Shown here one piece after another: positions 30,422 through 39,141 of a stretch of DNA of 64,000 nucleotides. Below the pieces are notes generated by a model, which saw only the letters and a program-made list of their open reading frames with translations, was not told the origin of the DNA and searched no databases. Position numbers and translations under genes: made by a program. How positions within the stretch are numbered: the first letter of the stretch is position 1; each line of letters opens with the position of its first letter. The stretch spans positions 1 to 64,000 of the forward strand of contig CASGBA010000009.1 in the NCBI GenBank assembly GCA_949299755.1, written 5' to 3'. The stretch comes from an uncultured Treponema sp. GTDB taxonomy: Bacteria > Spirochaetota > Spirochaetia > Treponematales > Treponemataceae.

Positions 30422-33180
30422 TTAAGGGTTTGGAGGGTTATCAACTTTAACGTAGTTTGGGGTATAAGTTCCACTTCCGCCGGTTTGGAAGTAAACATCA
30501 ACGTTACTGCTACCTGCTATGTTTCCTGTGATAGATGCGGTTGTGTTGGGATCAGTGGAACCGGTGAAATTACAACTCGAACCAATATAAACTCCACCTG
30601 CACCACTATTGGCTTTATTTCTGGTAATTGTACCACCATTCATATTCATAGTAGCACTGATAACAAGATACACGCCGCCAGAAGTCCCTTCTCCTGTATT
30701 GTCAGAAATTTCTCCTCCGGACATTTCAAATTTCGCACTCGGTCCGCTAACATACACACCGCTACCATATGTATGCCCCCGGTATTACCCTTGATAGAAC
30801 CGCCGGTCATTATCAGCTTGCCGTCGGTCACAGATACGCCCCCTCCAGCTCTGTTGTTTTGTATGTAGGCATTGTCCTCTATAGTCGCAGTTCCGCCGGC
30901 AGATACTTTTATTAGCGGTTTGTCGGCTCCCTCCTTTTCCGGGGGCTTAGCGGTTGGGTCTCCAGACACGTTAACCACACCGGCACCGCCGCCCAGGGTC
31001 AGGCTGCCGCCCTCTTGCACATCAAAGACGGTGGTGTCGCCGTCGGCGTTAATGTCTACAACTTTGCCGTTGCCCGGTTTAATGGCAACGTCCGCACCGT
31101 CGGGAACGGACACCGTGCTGCCAATATCGATATCCATGTCGCCGGATATTTCCACCTTGTATCCTCCGTCAGCGGAGTTATTCACCAAATCCTGCAAGCC
31201 GCCATTGTCAGCGGGAGGCGTCGTCACAGTAACAGTATCGCCGGACAGGGTTCCGTTTATGTATTTTAAAATGCCGTTCATTCCTTCCAGTCCTATCCAC
31301 CAGACACCGGCTGGCGGGTTGTCCAGGGCGAATTTACCGCAGATATCCTTGCTGCCGGCATTTTCCAAAAGCACTGCGTTTTCCTGATAATAACCGTTGA
31401 GAAGGTTGAGCTGCACGTTTAAAAGGGCAAATGCATTCAATCCCTTTACATTGATGTGTGCATCTTGTTCCAGTGTGATGGTGCAGTTGGTAATTGTGGG
31501 ATTTTCCGTTATGGCGAAAGTTTTTGCGGAGTAGATTTCCTTTTTGTTGCCTTGTCCCTGGATGGTTCCACCGTTCATGGTGAAAGTGCCGCCGGTACTT
31601 ACATACACGCCGCCGCCGAGGGAGGCTGTGCTCCCGGTTATTTTGCTGCCGCTTTCCATGGTGACATTTCCGCCATCTGTTATGTACACCGCACCGCCGG
31701 TGTTATTGTCATTAATTCCGGTGAGGGTTATGTTTTCCCCAGGGTAAGCTCGCCGCCGGTACCTATTGTGAACACACGGCCGGTATTGTTTTTCAGCGTT
31801 GCGCCGGCGGCGCTGCCCCTCACCGTGAGTGTCGTTACAGAACCGGTGGTACCGTTTAATGTACTGATTATCACCTCTTCAGTTGCAACGGTTCCCGTGA
31901 CAACTATTTCGCCTTCAGTAAATTTTGCATCACCAAGCAACTGTACGGCTTGCTGCAGTGTAGCCACTGGCTTAGTCTCTGTTCCCGGATTGCTGTCATC
32001 TCCGCTCGCGCTGACATAAACGGCGGCAGCCTTTACTGTGTATGTGAATGTCACTTCTTCGGAATTGGCCGCTCCGGTCATTTTAGCCACGGCACTTAAA
32101 GTATAGGTTCCGGGATCATTGAAAGTCACCGTAACATCGGGGTTTCCCGTATGAATGTTAACATTAGATGAATCACCATCGGTCACACGAACATCCAGGG
32201 TACGATTGACTCCGCTGGAGGCGGGATGCCGGATTGTTACGGAGTCTCCTACTTGTAAAATACTGCCCGACGGCGGATTAGATGTCGGGAGCTCCAGTTT
32301 GGATGCAGTCGCCCCGGCTTCTACCGATGTGGAAAGCCCGTAGCTGTCATATGTGGTCACGGTAAAGGAGACCGTGTCTCCCGACAGCGGGATTCCTGTG
32401 TCTATCCCCACAAAACGGTTGATTTCATCACCGATGAAATCTGCGGCTCCGTTGACTACCGGTTGCCAGTCTGCACTTTTGGTTGTGTGAATGGTTCCGG
32501 TTCCGCTGATGGTTCCATTTTGCATATCCACCGTGTAGGTGCGGTTGAAAGAGTTTCCGTCCACCGAAATGGTTTCTATGTCCCCGTTTGCCTTTGTAGC
32601 GTCAGGCATGTTGAAGCAGAGTATATAGGTTTCTGGGCTTGAACCGCTCCGCAGGACCACAGGGCTTTTTACCCCGTCCGGCGCCGAGTTCGCCCGCAAG
32701 GGGACGCTGTAGCTTCCGAAGTCCCTGCCGGAGTTGGGTTCCGTTATGCTCACCGTGGGGCTTATCTCCGTTCCGGTGCTGTCCAGGGGCTGAAGGTAAG
32801 AATCATTCAGGGTGAGACGCAGGACAGTCCTGTCCGACGCGTCCTGCTCTATGCTGTAATCCGAGCCTTGGTTGGGGCCGGGGGATGATGCGAAGGTTGC
32901 GGAGGGGGTCAGCACGTAGTTCTGGGGGTTTATGACGTAATAGGTTATCACCCGGTCGCCTCCGGAGGGCAGGTTGGTCATGCGCCGGTTGCCGGGTAGG
33001 AGCCGTCGAAGCGGTGCTCCATTATTTGGGCCACATTCGTCCACTCGTCCAGGAAGTCCTGGAGGGGCTTGTTGAACAGGTCGCAGGAAAGGAAGGTCAG
33101 GGCGCACAGGAAGAGCGCCGCAACCTTCGTCACGGGGCGGAAAGCCGGGATTTAAGGGGTTTACGGACGGGGCGCTGCAT
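30422..33180 (-). pseudogene. Surface lipoprotein gene A (Pmp-like repeats), frameshifted
   Basis: The gene is a paralogue of the intact lipoprotein at 34816-38778. Joining frames restores a lipoprotein signal (ALFLCALTFLSCDLFNKPL), an N-terminal Ig-like/IPT-like region (TNLPSGGDRVITYYVINPQNYVL), and a right-handed beta-helix of GGGVYVSTGGTFTMNGGTI-type repeats. Frameshifts are visible near 33150 (a CCC to CC loss after CGGCTTT), near 32985, at about 31738 (GGGG where the paralogue has one more G) and near 30775. They are mostly single-base homopolymer changes, so slippage, decay or sequencing error are all possible. It has no lectin-like domain. Confidence 0.78.
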
Positions 33181-33279
33181 GGTTTATACCCTCCCCCGTG
33201 ATACCTGGAAGCCGGCCGGGAATTCTGGTTTACGGGTCACCAATATTTTTCCTGCCATATTTCTACACCAGTATGTATT

Positions 33280-33309
33280 ATTATACACCATCAATATACA
33301 TTTTTTCAA
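33280..33309 (-). promoter_or_regulatory. Promoter of lipoprotein gene A
   Basis: Minus strand TTGAAA (33309-33304), 18-bp spacer, TATAAT (33285-33280). The surrounding 230 bp is homologous to the upstream region of the 1320-residue lipoprotein gene. Confidence 0.65.
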
Positions 33310-33407
33310 AAAAAGTATATCGGTTTTGCAATGGCTCCGCCAGGTGCCGGCAACAGGGTATGAAAAAAGTTTCAATGCGTTTCCCGGAGTTGCCGGCGGG
33401 CACTTCC

Positions 33408-34034
33408 CTAAGGTTCTTGGTATATTTTATCAACCGTACCGCCGGTTTTGTTAAAATAACAGTTTTGACTTACGTACACATCTTCACCGTTGATGGTTGC
33501 GGTGTTCTCGCTTATGGTTCCGTCATTCATGGTGACAGTGCCAAAGTTCATCACGTATACCCCGCCACCTAAATCCGCTCTATTGGCAGCATTTGCTTCT
33601 GTACCACCGATGGTTCCGCCGTTCATGGTGAAGCCGCCACTGCTGCTACTTACGCACACGCCGCCACCTCCATTACTGCTGTTGCCTCTTATGGCCGCAG
33701 TGCCGCTCATTTCGAAAGTCCCGTTCATCACGAACACACCGCCGCCATTGTCAGCGGTGTTTGCGCTTCCCGCATCGGTTCCGCCGATGGTTCCGCCTGT
33801 CATGGTGAACTCGCCGCCGGTACTTACAAACACCCCGCCACCACTGTCGGTTGCGGTGTTTCTGCTTATGGAACCATCGCTCATAGTGAAAACGCCTTTA
33901 TAAACACACACACCGCCACCGGATTCGGAAGAGTTGGCACTTGCCCCATCGGATCCACCGATGGTTCCGCCTTCCATAGTAAACTTGCCAGTCTCATAAA
34001 CGTACACACCTCCACCACCACTGGGTGGGCTGCC
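33408..34034 (-). pseudogene. 3' remnant of a Pmp-like surface lipoprotein (gene B)
   Basis: About 200 residues of beta-helix repeats (GGGVCVYKGVFTMSDGSISRNTATDSGGGVFV and similar) ending at a normal stop. There is no signal peptide, lipobox or N-terminal region. Its 5' end is joined at about 34034 to the truncated HRDC protein, in a different frame. The remnant is therefore the tail of a lipoprotein gene whose start was removed, probably by the same deletion that removed the downstream part of the retroelement. Confidence 0.75.
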
Positions 34035-34415
34035 CGACCCCCTGAATTGCAGCTAATTTTCCCAAATTATCTGGTTTTTGCTTTACGATTTGAGAAAGCT
34101 GTTCGTCAGTAAAAATTACAAATGGAGGGACACCTTCTTTTACAGCAAGTTCTTTTCGCTTTTCTCGTAACTTTGAGAAAACTGCAAACTCCTCGGTAGT
34201 AAGGACTTTCATATAGTCAACCTTACCACCCCCCCCCCTTGTCAGCCCCATCTTGAGACTGTAAATATTCTATATAAGACACACCAGGCTGGTGTATCAC
34301 CACCTGAAAATTCCGTTCTTACGCTAATAATTCTATGGGAATTTAAAAAAGAATTAAGCGTATCTTCCGTCTTTTCACTGCCACTGGCCGGCAACATAAA
34401 ACTTTTATACTGCAT
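34035..34415 (-). pseudogene. HRDC-domain DGR accessory protein, frameshifted and truncated
   Basis: Two frames encode one small protein. The N-terminal part (MQYKSFMLPASGSEKTEDTLNSFLNSHRIISVRTEF...TPAWC) is a beta-rich domain; the C-terminal part (KVDYMKVLTTEEFAVFSKLREKRKELAVKEGVPPFVIFTDEQLSQIVKQKPDNLGKLAAIQGVG) is an HRDC helical domain cut off after GVG. I recall proteins of this layout beside reverse transcriptases in some diversity-generating retroelements. The frames are separated by a probable extra T near 34287 and by a G10 tract (34229-34238); G9 would restore the second shift. ATG 34415 is chosen because homologues begin close to it and AAGG precedes it. Confidence 0.72.
34229..34238 (-). 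repeat. G10 homopolymer inside the accessory gene
   Basis: Ten consecutive C residues on the plus strand, G10 in the coding strand. With nine G residues the reading frame joins ADKGGGG to KVDYMKV. It is a candidate slippage site. Confidence 0.85.
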
Positions 34416-34575: not shown

Positions 34576-34688
34576 CTGCGCAGAGCGGACGAGGCGGAAG
34601 CCGTTGTTGTTGTTCCGGTTCGAGACGGTACAGTTTGAGGCGTTGTTGTTCCAACTGCCGCCACGTTTTACCCGGTTACTGCCGGTAA
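34576..34688 (-). repeat. DGR template repeat (TR)
   Basis: This 113-bp non-coding segment nearly copies the 3' end of the 1320-residue lipoprotein gene. Read on the minus strand its codons would give GSNRVKRGGSWNNNASNCTVSNRNNNNGFRLVRSAQ, where variable positions are AAC or AAA. Compared with the VR, substitutions fall on template adenines at 7 of 8 aligned differences; the exception is one G to A at the edge. The adenine-rich codons and the identical 3' block CGCCTCGTCCGCTCTGCGCAG (after which TR and VR diverge) match the TR of a diversity-generating retroelement. The run of variable codons is 24 nt shorter than in the VR. Confidence 0.82.
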
Positions 34689-34729
34689 ACAAGTCCGCTT
34701 TTATTATGCTGGAAAATACCGTATTTAAA

Positions 34730-34802
34730 CGGAAAATCCTTTTTACGGCAGTGGCCCCGGGCTTACGCACCGGTGCCTACCCTGCCGTATCAGGATTTTC
34801 CG
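34730..34802 (-). repeat. Composite inverted repeat just after the VR
   Basis: Outer arms CGGAAAATCCT (34730-34740) and AGGATTTTCCG (34792-34802) are perfect 11-bp complements. Inner arms ACGGCAG (34745-34751) and CTGCCGT (34782-34788) pair too, and the centre holds the palindrome GCACCGGTGC (34767-34776). It lies 17 bp beyond the VR. In phage BPP-1 a hairpin downstream of VR promotes retrohoming; a transcription terminator is the alternative. Confidence 0.75.
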
Positions 34803-34815
34803 GGAAACCATAGGG

Positions 34816-37800
34816 TTACTGCGCAGAGCGGACGAGGCGGAAGCCGTAGCTGCCCCGGTAGTAGGGGCTGCTGTAGCTGAGCCGGTTCGAGACGGTACAG
34901 TTTGAGGCGCTGTAGTTCCAACTGCCGCCACGCCCTACCCGGTAATCGCCGGTAACCGGTCCTGCAGGATCCTCTGTACCACTGGGATAGCCGCTACTTT
35001 TGCCATACCAGTCCCAGCACCACTCCCATACATTACCGCTCATGTCATAAAGCCCCAGGGCATTGGCTTGCTTTTTCCCTACCTCATGGGTCTTGCTGTC
35101 GCTATTTTCACTGTCGTTATTTTCAAAGTACCAAGCCACATCTTCCAGTGTATTGCTGCCGCTGTATGTGTAGCCCCAACTGCCGTCTGAAATTCCGGTC
35201 TGGCCTCCCCGGGCGGCGTATTCCCATTCCGCCTCTGTAGGGAGCCGGTAACCGTTAGCATTAAAATCACAGGTTACCCCATCCCAAGCTACATCACCTT
35301 CTGATGTGGGGGAAGTTCCCCAGGCAGCAGGGTCTGTAGAACTTTTGATGGTATAACAGGGGGTCAAGCCTTCTTTCATGCTTAAAAGGTTACAGTATAC
35401 GATTGCATCGTACCAGCTCACACGTTCCACAGGACGCCTTTCCTGCACCTCTCCCGCCGCTGGATTATCTGGAAAGTAACTAGGGTTGGACGCTATGCCG
35501 TTAGTGTTCCCGGTCATTATGCTTTTAAATTCAGCTTGGGTTACCTCGTAGGAGGAAATCCAGAAACTTGAGAGGGTTACATTTTGCCCGTTGAGGGTAC
35601 AGCTTCCACCTTCCACACGAACGAGATTGAGAGACAACTCAGAACCACTCAATGCCACATTACGTTCTGTATCATCGGAGAAGAAGAATGTGGTGTCTGT
35701 TAAACCGGAGGAACTCCAATTGGAAGTAAATACTCCCGGGGTAGCCATGGAAATACCTATGTTACCGGACACTTCTGCCTTTTCTAGTTTTCCAGTAATA
35801 GATAAGGTTTTACCATTATACAGATATACATTATTGGTAGAATTGCCGGTTTTTGTATTTCCGTAAATGACGGGGGAACTCCCAGCGCTTGAAGGACCAA
35901 GTGTAAAAGCACCGGAACTACTTACATACACGCCGCCACCGTTACCTTGTTCTGAACTGTTTTTTGTTATAATGCCGTTTTCCATGGTAAAGGTACCGTA
36001 AACAAATACCCCGCCTCCATGACTGGATGTACTGTTTTTTACAGTATTACCATCTATACTGCCTCCCTTCATAGTCAAGGCACAGTCACTATCAATATAT
36101 ACCCCGCCACCATTAGATCCATCTGCATTATTTTGCCAAATCTTCCCGCTTTCCAGTATCAGAGAACCGGGAACAGAACCTATAGAATTACTGGTTATAT
36201 GTATTCCTCCTCCACCGCCCTTAGAATTACCGCCGGTTATGGTACCGGTTCCGTTAGCACCGTCAGAATTTGTTGCAGAGGAGTCTTTTATTGTTAAGGT
36301 ACCGCCTACTATTTTTATAACTGAGCCATCGGCTTGAGCTGAAGTTAATTCACGGTTTATGGTTTTGCCGTTAAGGTCAAGAATAAAAGATCGTGTTTCA
36401 TCGTCACTAGAAAAGGTTATGGGCTGATTATTGGCAGAACTAGTGCCAAAGACTGCGTTGCTACTATCAATATCCTTTAACAAGGTGATGGTTCCGCCGG
36501 ATCCATTTACTGCAGTAAGAGCATCTGTAAAAGCACCAAAGGTTTCAGTACCGGAATTTGCTACATACACTGTTTCAGCATCTGACAGATATACAGCTCC
36601 ATTATATTCTGCAATGCTATAGGTATCCACATCAGAAGTAAATATTCCCGCTGTACCGTTAACATCTCCATTTGTTATCTGTACTGCACTTCCCGATGGC
36701 ACGTTTTCTGCCGTGACCCCGATAGTACCACCGGTAAGACCTTCGGCACCGATGGTAATGGTTTTTCCGCGGGGCAGATACACGTTGTTGGCGTTGTTAC
36801 TTACTGTGTTGCCGGTAATGGTTGGACTACCACTGACGGTAAAGGTACCATCAAATACATACACGCCGCCACCGTACTGGGCAGAGTTGTCGCTTCCCGC
36901 CTCGGATCCGCCGATGGTTCCTCCTGCCATGGTAAAGTTTCCATCATTTACATATACACCGCCACCACTTTCAGTCACTGTGTTTCCGCTAATAGTACCA
37001 TAATTCATATTAAATGTACCGCCGGAAACAAACACACCACCACCATATTCAGCTGTGTTTGCAGCAGTTCCACCGATAGTTCCACCGTTCATAGTAAAAG
37101 TACCACCGGAATAAATATGTACACCGCCACCGTGAGTAGTAGCCCTATTACCTTGTATTGTGGCAGTATCGCTCATGGTGAAACTTCCGCCGTTTACATA
37201 TACGGCACCGCCGCTTGCCGTGGTACCGGTTGCACTGCTTCCGGTTATGATACTATTACCTTCCATGATAAAGTTTCCGCCGGCTACATATACGGCACCA
37301 CCGTTATCATCTGTTACAGTTCCCGTTAATGTGATATTTTCTCCCAAGGTAAGGCTTCCGCCGGTTATGTTAAGGACACGACCGGAACTGTTGGCTATAG
37401 TTCCTCTGCCGTTATATCCCCGCAGAGTCAGATTACCGGAACTGTGGGCATATTCACCGGAAACAGAAACAGTACCTTCTACATAAACAACTCCGTCATT
37501 ACCTATGGCACCGGCAGCTTTAGTCAAGGTGGCATAGGGGTTATTAGGAGTACCGGTACCGGTATCGTCATTACCACCCGCAGCTATATATGCGGCAGAA
37601 TAAGGTACCGTATAGGTAAATGTTGTTGTGGTATCCCTGGCACCGGATACCCCGCCGGCGGTGGCGGTGACGGTGTAGGTTCCCTTCTTGATAAAGGTCA
37701 GGGAGATTCCGCTGACGTCTTTCACGGTGTTTCCGGTAAAAGTCAGAGGGTTTCCACTTTGGTCAGTTGCAGACACGCCTTCTGAGCTGCTCAAGGTAAG

Positions 37801-38778
37801 CGTTACCGTGGAACCGGCGATTTCCTGATTAAAGGTCACCGGCACACCGGGGTTAATGGTGCCGGATCCGGGACTGGCCGTGACGGCGGGCAGCGGCGGC
37901 GCTTCCGTGGAAGCGGTAACCACCGAAGTAAGACCGGAAGAATCGGTTAAAGTTATGGTGCATTCAGGGCTGGGTACGTCATTCAGCGATATGCCCGTTT
38001 CTATCCCCACAAAGCGGTTGTTTTTGTCCCCGAAAAACGCGCCGCCGTCACCCACCGGCGCGTAATTTCCGAATGTGTCGTTGATTTTATCTTGCCCTGT
38101 AATGCCGTTGCCGTTGCTGTCGGAGGGAGCCGCCACCGTGTATGTTTTGTCGTAAAAACCGCTGACCGTAAGGGATACAATGTCCCGGTGGATGCCGGTC
38201 ATGTCCGGCATGTTGAAGCAAATCACGTAGGTGTTGTCCGGGTCTTTGTAAAGGATGATAGGGGAAGTCACTGCGGGCGGCACCGTGTTCACCCGCAGGG
38301 GAACCCTGTAGCTTCCGAAGTCCCTGCCGGAATTCCTCTCCGTTATGCTCACTGTGGGGCTTATGTTCGTTCCGGTGCTGTCCAGGGGCTGGAGGTAAGA
38401 ATCTCTCAGGGTGAGGCGCAGGACAGTCCTGTCCGACGCATCCTGCTCTATGCTGTAATCTTGACCCGAGCTGGGATTGCCGGAGGCGAAGGATACCACA
38501 GGATCCAGCAAGTAGTTCTGGGGATTCACCAGGTAATAGGTTATTATCCGGTCGCCTCCGGAGGGCAGGTTGGTAAGCCCGCTGGTTGCCGGGTAGGAGC
38601 CGTCGAAGCGGTGCTCCATTATCTTCGCTGTGCTGGTCCACTCGTCCAGGAAGTTCTGGAGGGGCTTGTTGAACAGGTCGCAGGAAAGGAAGGTCAGGGC
38701 GCACAGGAAGAGCGCCGCAAACACCGCCACGGTGCGGGAAAGCCGGGATGGAAGGGTTTTACGGGCGGGACGCCGCAT
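34816..38778 (-). CDS. Surface lipoprotein with Pmp-like beta-helix and variable lectin-fold domain
   Basis: An intact 1320-residue lipoprotein, probably outer-surface. The signal peptide ends at lipobox FLSC (C33). Residues 40-400 form Ig-like/IPT-like beta domains; about 400-1060 is a right-handed beta-helix of GGGVYV...GTFTMNGGTI repeats like polymorphic membrane proteins; about 1075-1320 is a formylglycine-generating-enzyme-like domain (YRLPTEAEWEYAARGG, MSGNVWEWCWDW, VGRGGSWNYSASNC, GFRLVRSAQ), the C-type lectin fold used by TvpA in Treponema DGRs. The last 137 bp before the stop are the VR. AGGAGGGGG precedes the ATG. The protein is a likely diversified ligand-binding adhesin; the ligand is unknown. 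Confidence 0.88.
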   Translation of the reverse strand: MRRPARKTLPSRLSRTVAVFAALFLCALTFLSCDLFNKPLQNFLDEWTSTAKIMEHRFDGSYPATSGLTNLPSGGDRIITYYLVNPQNYLLDPVVSFASGNPSSGQDYSIEQDASDRTVLRLTLRDSYLQPLDSTGTNISPTVSITERNSGRDFGSYRVPLRVNTVPPAVTSPIILYKDPDNTYVICFNMPDMTGIHRDIVSLTVSGFYDKTYTVAAPSDSNGNGITGQDKINDTFGNYAPVGDGGAFFGDKNNRFVGIETGISLNDVPSPECTITLTDSSGLTSVVTASTEAPPLPAVTASPGSGTINPGVPVTFNQEIAGSTVTLTLSSSEGVSATDQSGNPLTFTGNTVKDVSGISLTFIKKGTYTVTATAGGVSGARDTTTTFTYTVPYSAAYIAAGGNDDTGTGTPNNPYATLTKAAGAIGNDGVVYVEGTVSVSGEYAHSSGNLTLRGYNGRGTIANSSGRVLNITGGSLTLGENITLTGTVTDDNGGAVYVAGGNFIMEGNSIITGSSATGTTASGGAVYVNGGSFTMSDTATIQGNRATTHGGGVHIYSGGTFTMNGGTIGGTAANTAEYGGGVFVSGGTFNMNYGTISGNTVTESGGGVYVNDGNFTMAGGTIGGSEAGSDNSAQYGGGVYVFDGTFTVSGSPTITGNTVSNNANNVYLPRGKTITIGAEGLTGGTIGVTAENVPSGSAVQITNGDVNGTAGIFTSDVDTYSIAEYNGAVYLSDAETVYVANSGTETFGAFTDALTAVNGSGGTITLLKDIDSSNAVFGTSSANNQPITFSSDDETRSFILDLNGKTINRELTSAQADGSVIKIVGGTLTIKDSSATNSDGANGTGTITGGNSKGGGGGIHITSNSIGSVPGSLILESGKIWQNNADGSNGGGVYIDSDCALTMKGGSIDGNTVKNSTSSHGGGVFVYGTFTMENGIITKNSSEQGNGGGVYVSSSGAFTLGPSSAGSSPVIYGNTKTGNSTNNVYLYNGKTLSITGKLEKAEVSGNIGISMATPGVFTSNWSSSGLTDTTFFFSDDTERNVALSGSELSLNLVRVEGGSCTLNGQNVTLSSFWISSYEVTQAEFKSIMTGNTNGIASNPSYFPDNPAAGEVQERRPVERVSWYDAIVYCNLLSMKEGLTPCYTIKSSTDPAAWGTSPTSEGDVAWDGVTCDFNANGYRLPTEAEWEYAARGGQTGISDGSWGYTYSGSNTLEDVAWYFENNDSENSDSKTHEVGKKQANALGLYDMSGNVWEWCWDWYGKSSGYPSGTEDPAGPVTGDYRVGRGGSWNYSASNCTVSNRLSYSSPYYRGSYGFRLVRSAQ
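34819..34955 (-). repeat. DGR variable repeat (VR) at the 3' end of the lipoprotein gene
   Basis: The last 137 bp before the stop codon correspond to the TR at 34576-34688. The variable patch (34846-34881) reads CTC AGC TAC AGC, AGC CCC TAC TAC, CGG GGC AGC TAC; nearly all codons are NNC, as expected from AAC codons mutated at their adenines. The downstream 27 bp, GGC to CAG, are identical to the TR and would act as the initiation-of-homing segment. Confidence 0.82.
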
Positions 38779-38875
38779 GGGCTATACCCCCTCCTGTGGT
38801 ATCTGGATGCAGGACAGGAATTCTGGTTTACGGGTTCCTGTTTGTTTCCTGCCATTTATTACACCAGTGAGTATC

Positions 38876-38904
38876 ATTATACATCATAATGAGCCGTTTT
38901 ACAA
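38876..38904 (-). promoter_or_regulatory. Promoter of the 1320-residue lipoprotein
   Basis: Minus strand TTGTAA (38904-38899), 17-bp spacer, TATAAT (38881-38876), followed by a leader of about 90 nt with a strong AGGAGGGGG site before ATG 38778. Confidence 0.72.
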
Positions 38905-39141
38905 AAAAAATTATATCGATTTTGAAAGATCTCCGTCCGGTTCCGGCAACAGGGCACGAAAAAGTTTCAATGCGTTTTATGGAGTTACCGGGAAATGCCG
39001 TGGGACGTGCCGCACAAGGAACGGCTATCGCACAAAGCACAGCCTTTTAGGCGCCGGGCTCACTACCGCCGGGCGGGATGACTTGCGGGGGTATACAGCC
39101 CGTCTGGGGGTATATAACCCGGCGGGGTTTTGCAATTGCCC

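Follow-up and report, generated by a model that had tools for sequence, protein, structure and literature searches.

The window, a stretch of 64,000 nucleotides from the genome of an uncultured Treponema sp., carries on its minus strand a gene (34816..38778) for a lipoprotein-type protein of 1320 amino acid residues, in which beta-helix-like repeats are followed by a C-terminal FGE-sulfatase/C-type-lectin domain (residues 1065-1317). The initial annotation had reported that the end of this gene is repeated nearby, and we find the repeat where it was placed. A non-coding, AAC-rich segment of 113 bp on the minus strand (34576..34688), approximately 130 bp downstream of the end of the gene, copies the final 137 bp of the coding sequence (34819..34955, minus strand). 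We refer to these segments as the template repeat (TR) and the variable repeat (VR), respectively, of a diversity-generating retroelement (DGR). Translated, the lipoprotein gene (38778-34816) terminates with RVGRGGSWNYSASNCTVSNRLSYSSPYYRGSYGFRLVRSAQ and a stop codon, and the TR, if translated from 34688 to 34576, reads RVKRGGSWNNNASNCTVSNRNNNNGFRLVRSAQ. Further along the minus strand lie the remains of an HRDC accessory gene. Its 5' part (34272..34415) matches model positions 1-47 in a first frame (E = 1.1e-12), and the HRDC domain part (34030..34233), read in a different frame, matches model positions 58-125 of 151 (PF00570, E = 9e-13; profile, E = 2.7e-29), where it is cut off. The accessory gene is thus not intact and is best described as a pseudogene. 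Between 34010 and 34035 on the minus strand we place a probable deletion joint, on a basis that includes comparison with the cassette L071 of a related genome: here the HRDC gene has lost its 3' end, the reverse transcriptase (RT) gene is missing altogether, and what follows is the interior of a beta-helix lipoprotein gene. This 3' fragment of a paralogous gene (33408..34025, minus strand) has no FGE domain and is about 51% identical to the repeat region of the target.

The N-terminus of the target protein is of the lipoprotein type, in agreement with its earlier description as a surface lipoprotein. Its C-terminal domain matches PF03781 (E = 6e-45) and TvpA of T. denticola (PDB 2y3c, E = 6e-54), which bears out the proposed TvpA-like FGE/C-type-lectin target, and the VR forms the C-terminus of this TvpA-homologous domain. 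An AF2 model of the target, built on a 4-row alignment, was poor over the FGE part, and the fold assignment therefore rests on sequence homology to TvpA. The N-terminal part of the protein contains GGGVYV/GTFTM repeats. Residues 43-300 of the modelled stretch were predicted to be all-beta, with pLDDT mostly 55-90, and Foldseek searches with the model returned mostly beta-helix proteins, the best of them parallel beta-helix proteins, all at E > 0.001 and not significant. A beta-helix in the N-terminal part is plausible in view of the repeats, with weak beta-helix matches from AF2 and Foldseek. The coupling of the target domain to a long beta-helix, put forward in the initial annotation, is likewise plausible, and L212, from a related genome, has the same beta-helix/FGE fusion. 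Our literature search found no paper describing a beta-helix lipoprotein as a DGR target. The genome of the window holds FGE-less paralogues of the target and a single FGE-sulfatase gene, the target itself, which rules out an FGE paralogue as the source of the copy at 34576. Judging from its sequence, the target gene is intact, and its current VR may provide a functional, fixed binding surface.

In the optimal gapped alignment, the TR and VR differ by 12 substitutions, 11 of them at TR adenines and one a G to A change at the 5' edge. Thus, 11 of 30 TR adenines are changed, as compared to 1 of 83 other TR bases (Fisher p = 9e-7). This bias is robust to gap placement, since all alternative near-optimal placements give 12-14 substitutions with 11-13 at A (Fisher p = 4e-8 to 1.1e-6). 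The adenine bias and the G to A change at the edge had both been reported before; the accompanying count of 8 substitutions, 7 at template adenines, is replaced by the numbers given here. The alignment also reproduces the identical 3' ends: the last 27 bp of the TR (34576..34602, minus strand), an IMH-like region, are the same as VR 34819-34845, and the similarity stops beyond them. The TR is 24 nt shorter than the VR by an internal deletion, and the same 8 codons are absent from its AAC tract by comparison with the TRs of most relatives, whose length the VR keeps. The repeat is not due to chance, for no sequence in the genome matches the TR strongly except this VR (E = 3e-23, against E = 0.27 for the match ranked second). 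No hairpin was found downstream of the VR or TR beyond a 9-bp palindrome at 34764-34779.

The same bias is seen between species. The homologous gene in G284, a genome from another genus of the same family, shows 87% DNA identity upstream of the VR, and the two VRs differ at 16 of 30 TR-adenine columns as compared to 3 of 83 others (p = 8e-9). Hence, the expectation that VR differences between relatives favor template adenines holds in this comparison, as does the adenine-directed signature proposed from the window by itself. These data confirm that the TR and VR are a genuine DGR template/variable repeat pair. Although the target genes of G284 are the closest ones, its 94%-complete assembly yielded no TR, HRDC or RT. 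The RT-less TR on contig C42 of G145 (L067 1501-1607) lacks part of the AAC tract that is also shortened in the window TR, and the two together suggest that this tract is a deletion-prone repeat. The TRs of G151 (L071 ~770-850) and G204 (L080 ~1560-1600) carry an insert within the tract, which in L071 contains the inverted repeat CAAATTGC...GCAATTTG; in G204, no RT accompanies the TR.

When 274 genomes of the family were searched, the TR found matches at E <= 0.001 in 38 genomes other than its own. Most of the matches examined are non-coding, asparagine-codon-rich repeats, and a few lie inside FGE genes (L066, L082, L090). Several relatives' TRs lie <=1.5 kb from an RT with a YMDD motif. One such genome, G075, was recognized as T. 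denticola ATCC 35405 because the coordinates of its RT and of its TR, which is homologous to that of the window, agree with those published (PMC4891356). The gene order in L071 is TR-HRDC-RT. That cassette (G151:C178, L071/L216) and the window are alike in the order of TR and HRDC, and its HRDC protein is 67-75% identical to the window remnant. Unlike the window, it retains an RT, its HRDC and RT frames are intact, and its TR bears an insertion. Thus, the window combines a TR homologous to those of RT-bearing cassettes with an HRDC remnant at the syntenic place. In three further genomes (G259, G165 and G166; L068, L069 and L070), the TR and target lie on one strand and the HRDC-RT genes on the other, in convergent orientation, which resembles the inverted DGRs assigned to 'group 4' in PMC3521204; the RT reading frame of L069 (517-1632, plus strand) passes through the antisense of its own TR.

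At the position that the RT occupies in relatives, overlapping or abutting the HRDC gene, the window has none. No RT was detected in the 99.2%-complete genome assembly with Pfam RVT_1 (PF00078), nor at E <= 10 with a profile of seven related DGR RTs, and no RT remnants were found in the window or the genome. Inspection of the neighborhood revealed no Avd adjoining the HRDC remnant. One of the HRDC frameshifts seen falls at a run of 10 G. These frameshifts could be sequencing errors, whereas the 3' truncation cannot be. A working DGR, as the initial annotation implied, is the part of that account that finds no support, given an RT absent genome-wide, an HRDC gene both frameshifted and truncated, and a TR with an internal 24-nt deletion.

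We conclude, with a probability of roughly 0.84, that the window holds the remnant of an HRDC-type DGR of the T. denticola kind that was recently broken, leaving its VR frozen. In the ancestor, an error-prone RT would have reverse-transcribed the TR RNA, placing random bases opposite its adenines, and the VR that ends the gene for the FGE-domain lipoprotein would have been overwritten by the resulting cDNA. A later deletion, probably between the cassette and the neighboring beta-helix lipoprotein paralogue, would then have removed the end of the HRDC gene together with the whole RT. The HRDC remnant would have gained its frameshifts and the AAC tract of the TR lost 24 nt, with the target gene remaining intact around a frozen VR. 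We infer this past activity, the order of events and the present inactivity from the features described above, for which a deletion taking the HRDC end and the RT, plus decay of the rest, is the simplest account. The loss, if real, would be recent because a single non-A substitution separates the TR from the VR, as low a number as in the RT-bearing cassettes measured (0-5). Recombination-prone paralogues adjoin the cassette, in keeping with such a deletion. In the neighboring lipoprotein paralogue (31500-33180), the signal peptide is frameshifted and there are further breaks of frame, and the start regions of the two lipoprotein genes (33101-33396 and 38698-38991) are 79% identical over 297 bp; by sequence, this paralogue and the target appear to be a tandem duplication.

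The T. denticola TvpA DGR (ATCC 35405) provides the closest framework for comparison with the window. Both have an FGE/C-type-lectin lipoprotein target with the TR just downstream, and in both the TR is AAC-rich and the substitutions are A-specific. Each of the nine T. denticola strains with a DGR is reported to have an HRDC accessory gene between TR and RT (PMC4891356), the arrangement also seen in the TvpA system, whereas in the window the HRDC gene is broken and the RT absent; the shortened TR and the long beta-helix-like N-terminal part of the target also set the window apart. Persistence of an A-diversified VR after RT loss is shared with RT-less T. denticola strains (PMC4891356). Those strains, however, 8 of 17, reportedly have neither TR nor RT but keep their target genes (PMC4891356), while the window still has a TR and an HRDC remnant. 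Given that difference, TR retention is a less-described stage of the same process of DGR loss, and what is new here is that a TR is retained, together with an HRDC stub and a deletion joint.

An RT located elsewhere, in an assembly gap, plasmid or prophage, might instead act in trans on a pair that still works, and we consider this unlikely. The genome is a 23-contig draft in which C7 and C11 end inside paralogues of the target lipoprotein, and an RT could possibly lie in an assembly gap or in unbinned DNA. There are also precedents for separation: some T. denticola target genes are remote from the RT (PMC4891356), and G145 has its RT-less TR/VR pair on C42 and an RT on C136. However, even at E <= 10 the nearly complete genome yields no RT, and the HRDC gene in cis is broken. 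Furthermore, the difference of 24 nt in length between TR and VR shows that no homing of the TR, in its present form, into this VR has followed the TR deletion. A genome of the same genus, G002, does carry a DGR RT (L015, G002:C6:82322-83176), but its target and TR differ from those of the window. With an Avd-like small ORF and a GARLACD-type target, it is a different DGR and is ruled out as the missing RT; the ORFs beside it look phage-like by eye. A broader version of the same idea, in which Treponemataceae commonly carry RT-less target and TR modules as non-autonomous DGRs that undergo diversification only if another locus or an incoming element provides an RT in trans, with the window as one example, seems to us doubtful.

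Pairs of TR and VR with no RT in the assembly do recur in the family. They are present in G032, G076, G078 and G087, genomes that are 99% complete in one or two contigs, and also in G279 and G189, although in any draft genome an RT might act in trans. Such recurrence might indicate that reduced pairs are kept for an RT-independent purpose, for example restoration of the TR sequence in the VR by RecA-type conversion, and the pairs of G076 and G078, in which 17 of 17 TR/VR substitutions fall on adenines, fit this reading. Nevertheless, it is very unlikely: recent loss accounts for these pairs equally well, no mechanism is known, and other RT-less pairs have the many non-A changes that neutral decay predicts (13 in G279, 12 in G189 and 7 in G032). 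Finally, the repeat at 34576 might be nothing more than a decayed duplication of the 3' end of the gene, or might serve gene conversion as a donor cassette, in either case with no RT involved. This reading would suit a short, adjacent, non-coding copy in the same orientation next to decaying paralogues, but it is already contradicted by the strict adenine bias, both from TR to VR and in the cross-species VR comparison, by the homologous non-coding repeats that adjoin HRDC and RT genes in relatives, and by the HRDC remnant at the expected place, and we regard it as extremely improbable.

Read as the remnant of a broken DGR, the locus illustrates how such an element dies: the RT and accessory gene are lost or broken, and the template and a frozen variable domain remain. 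DGR gain and loss, known from T. denticola, is thereby extended to a further genus within the family. RT-anchored searches miss RT-less pairs of TR and VR, and proteins shaped by DGRs may consequently be undercounted. RT-less pairs that differ in their number of non-adenine changes would, in addition, allow the loss of DGRs to be dated.
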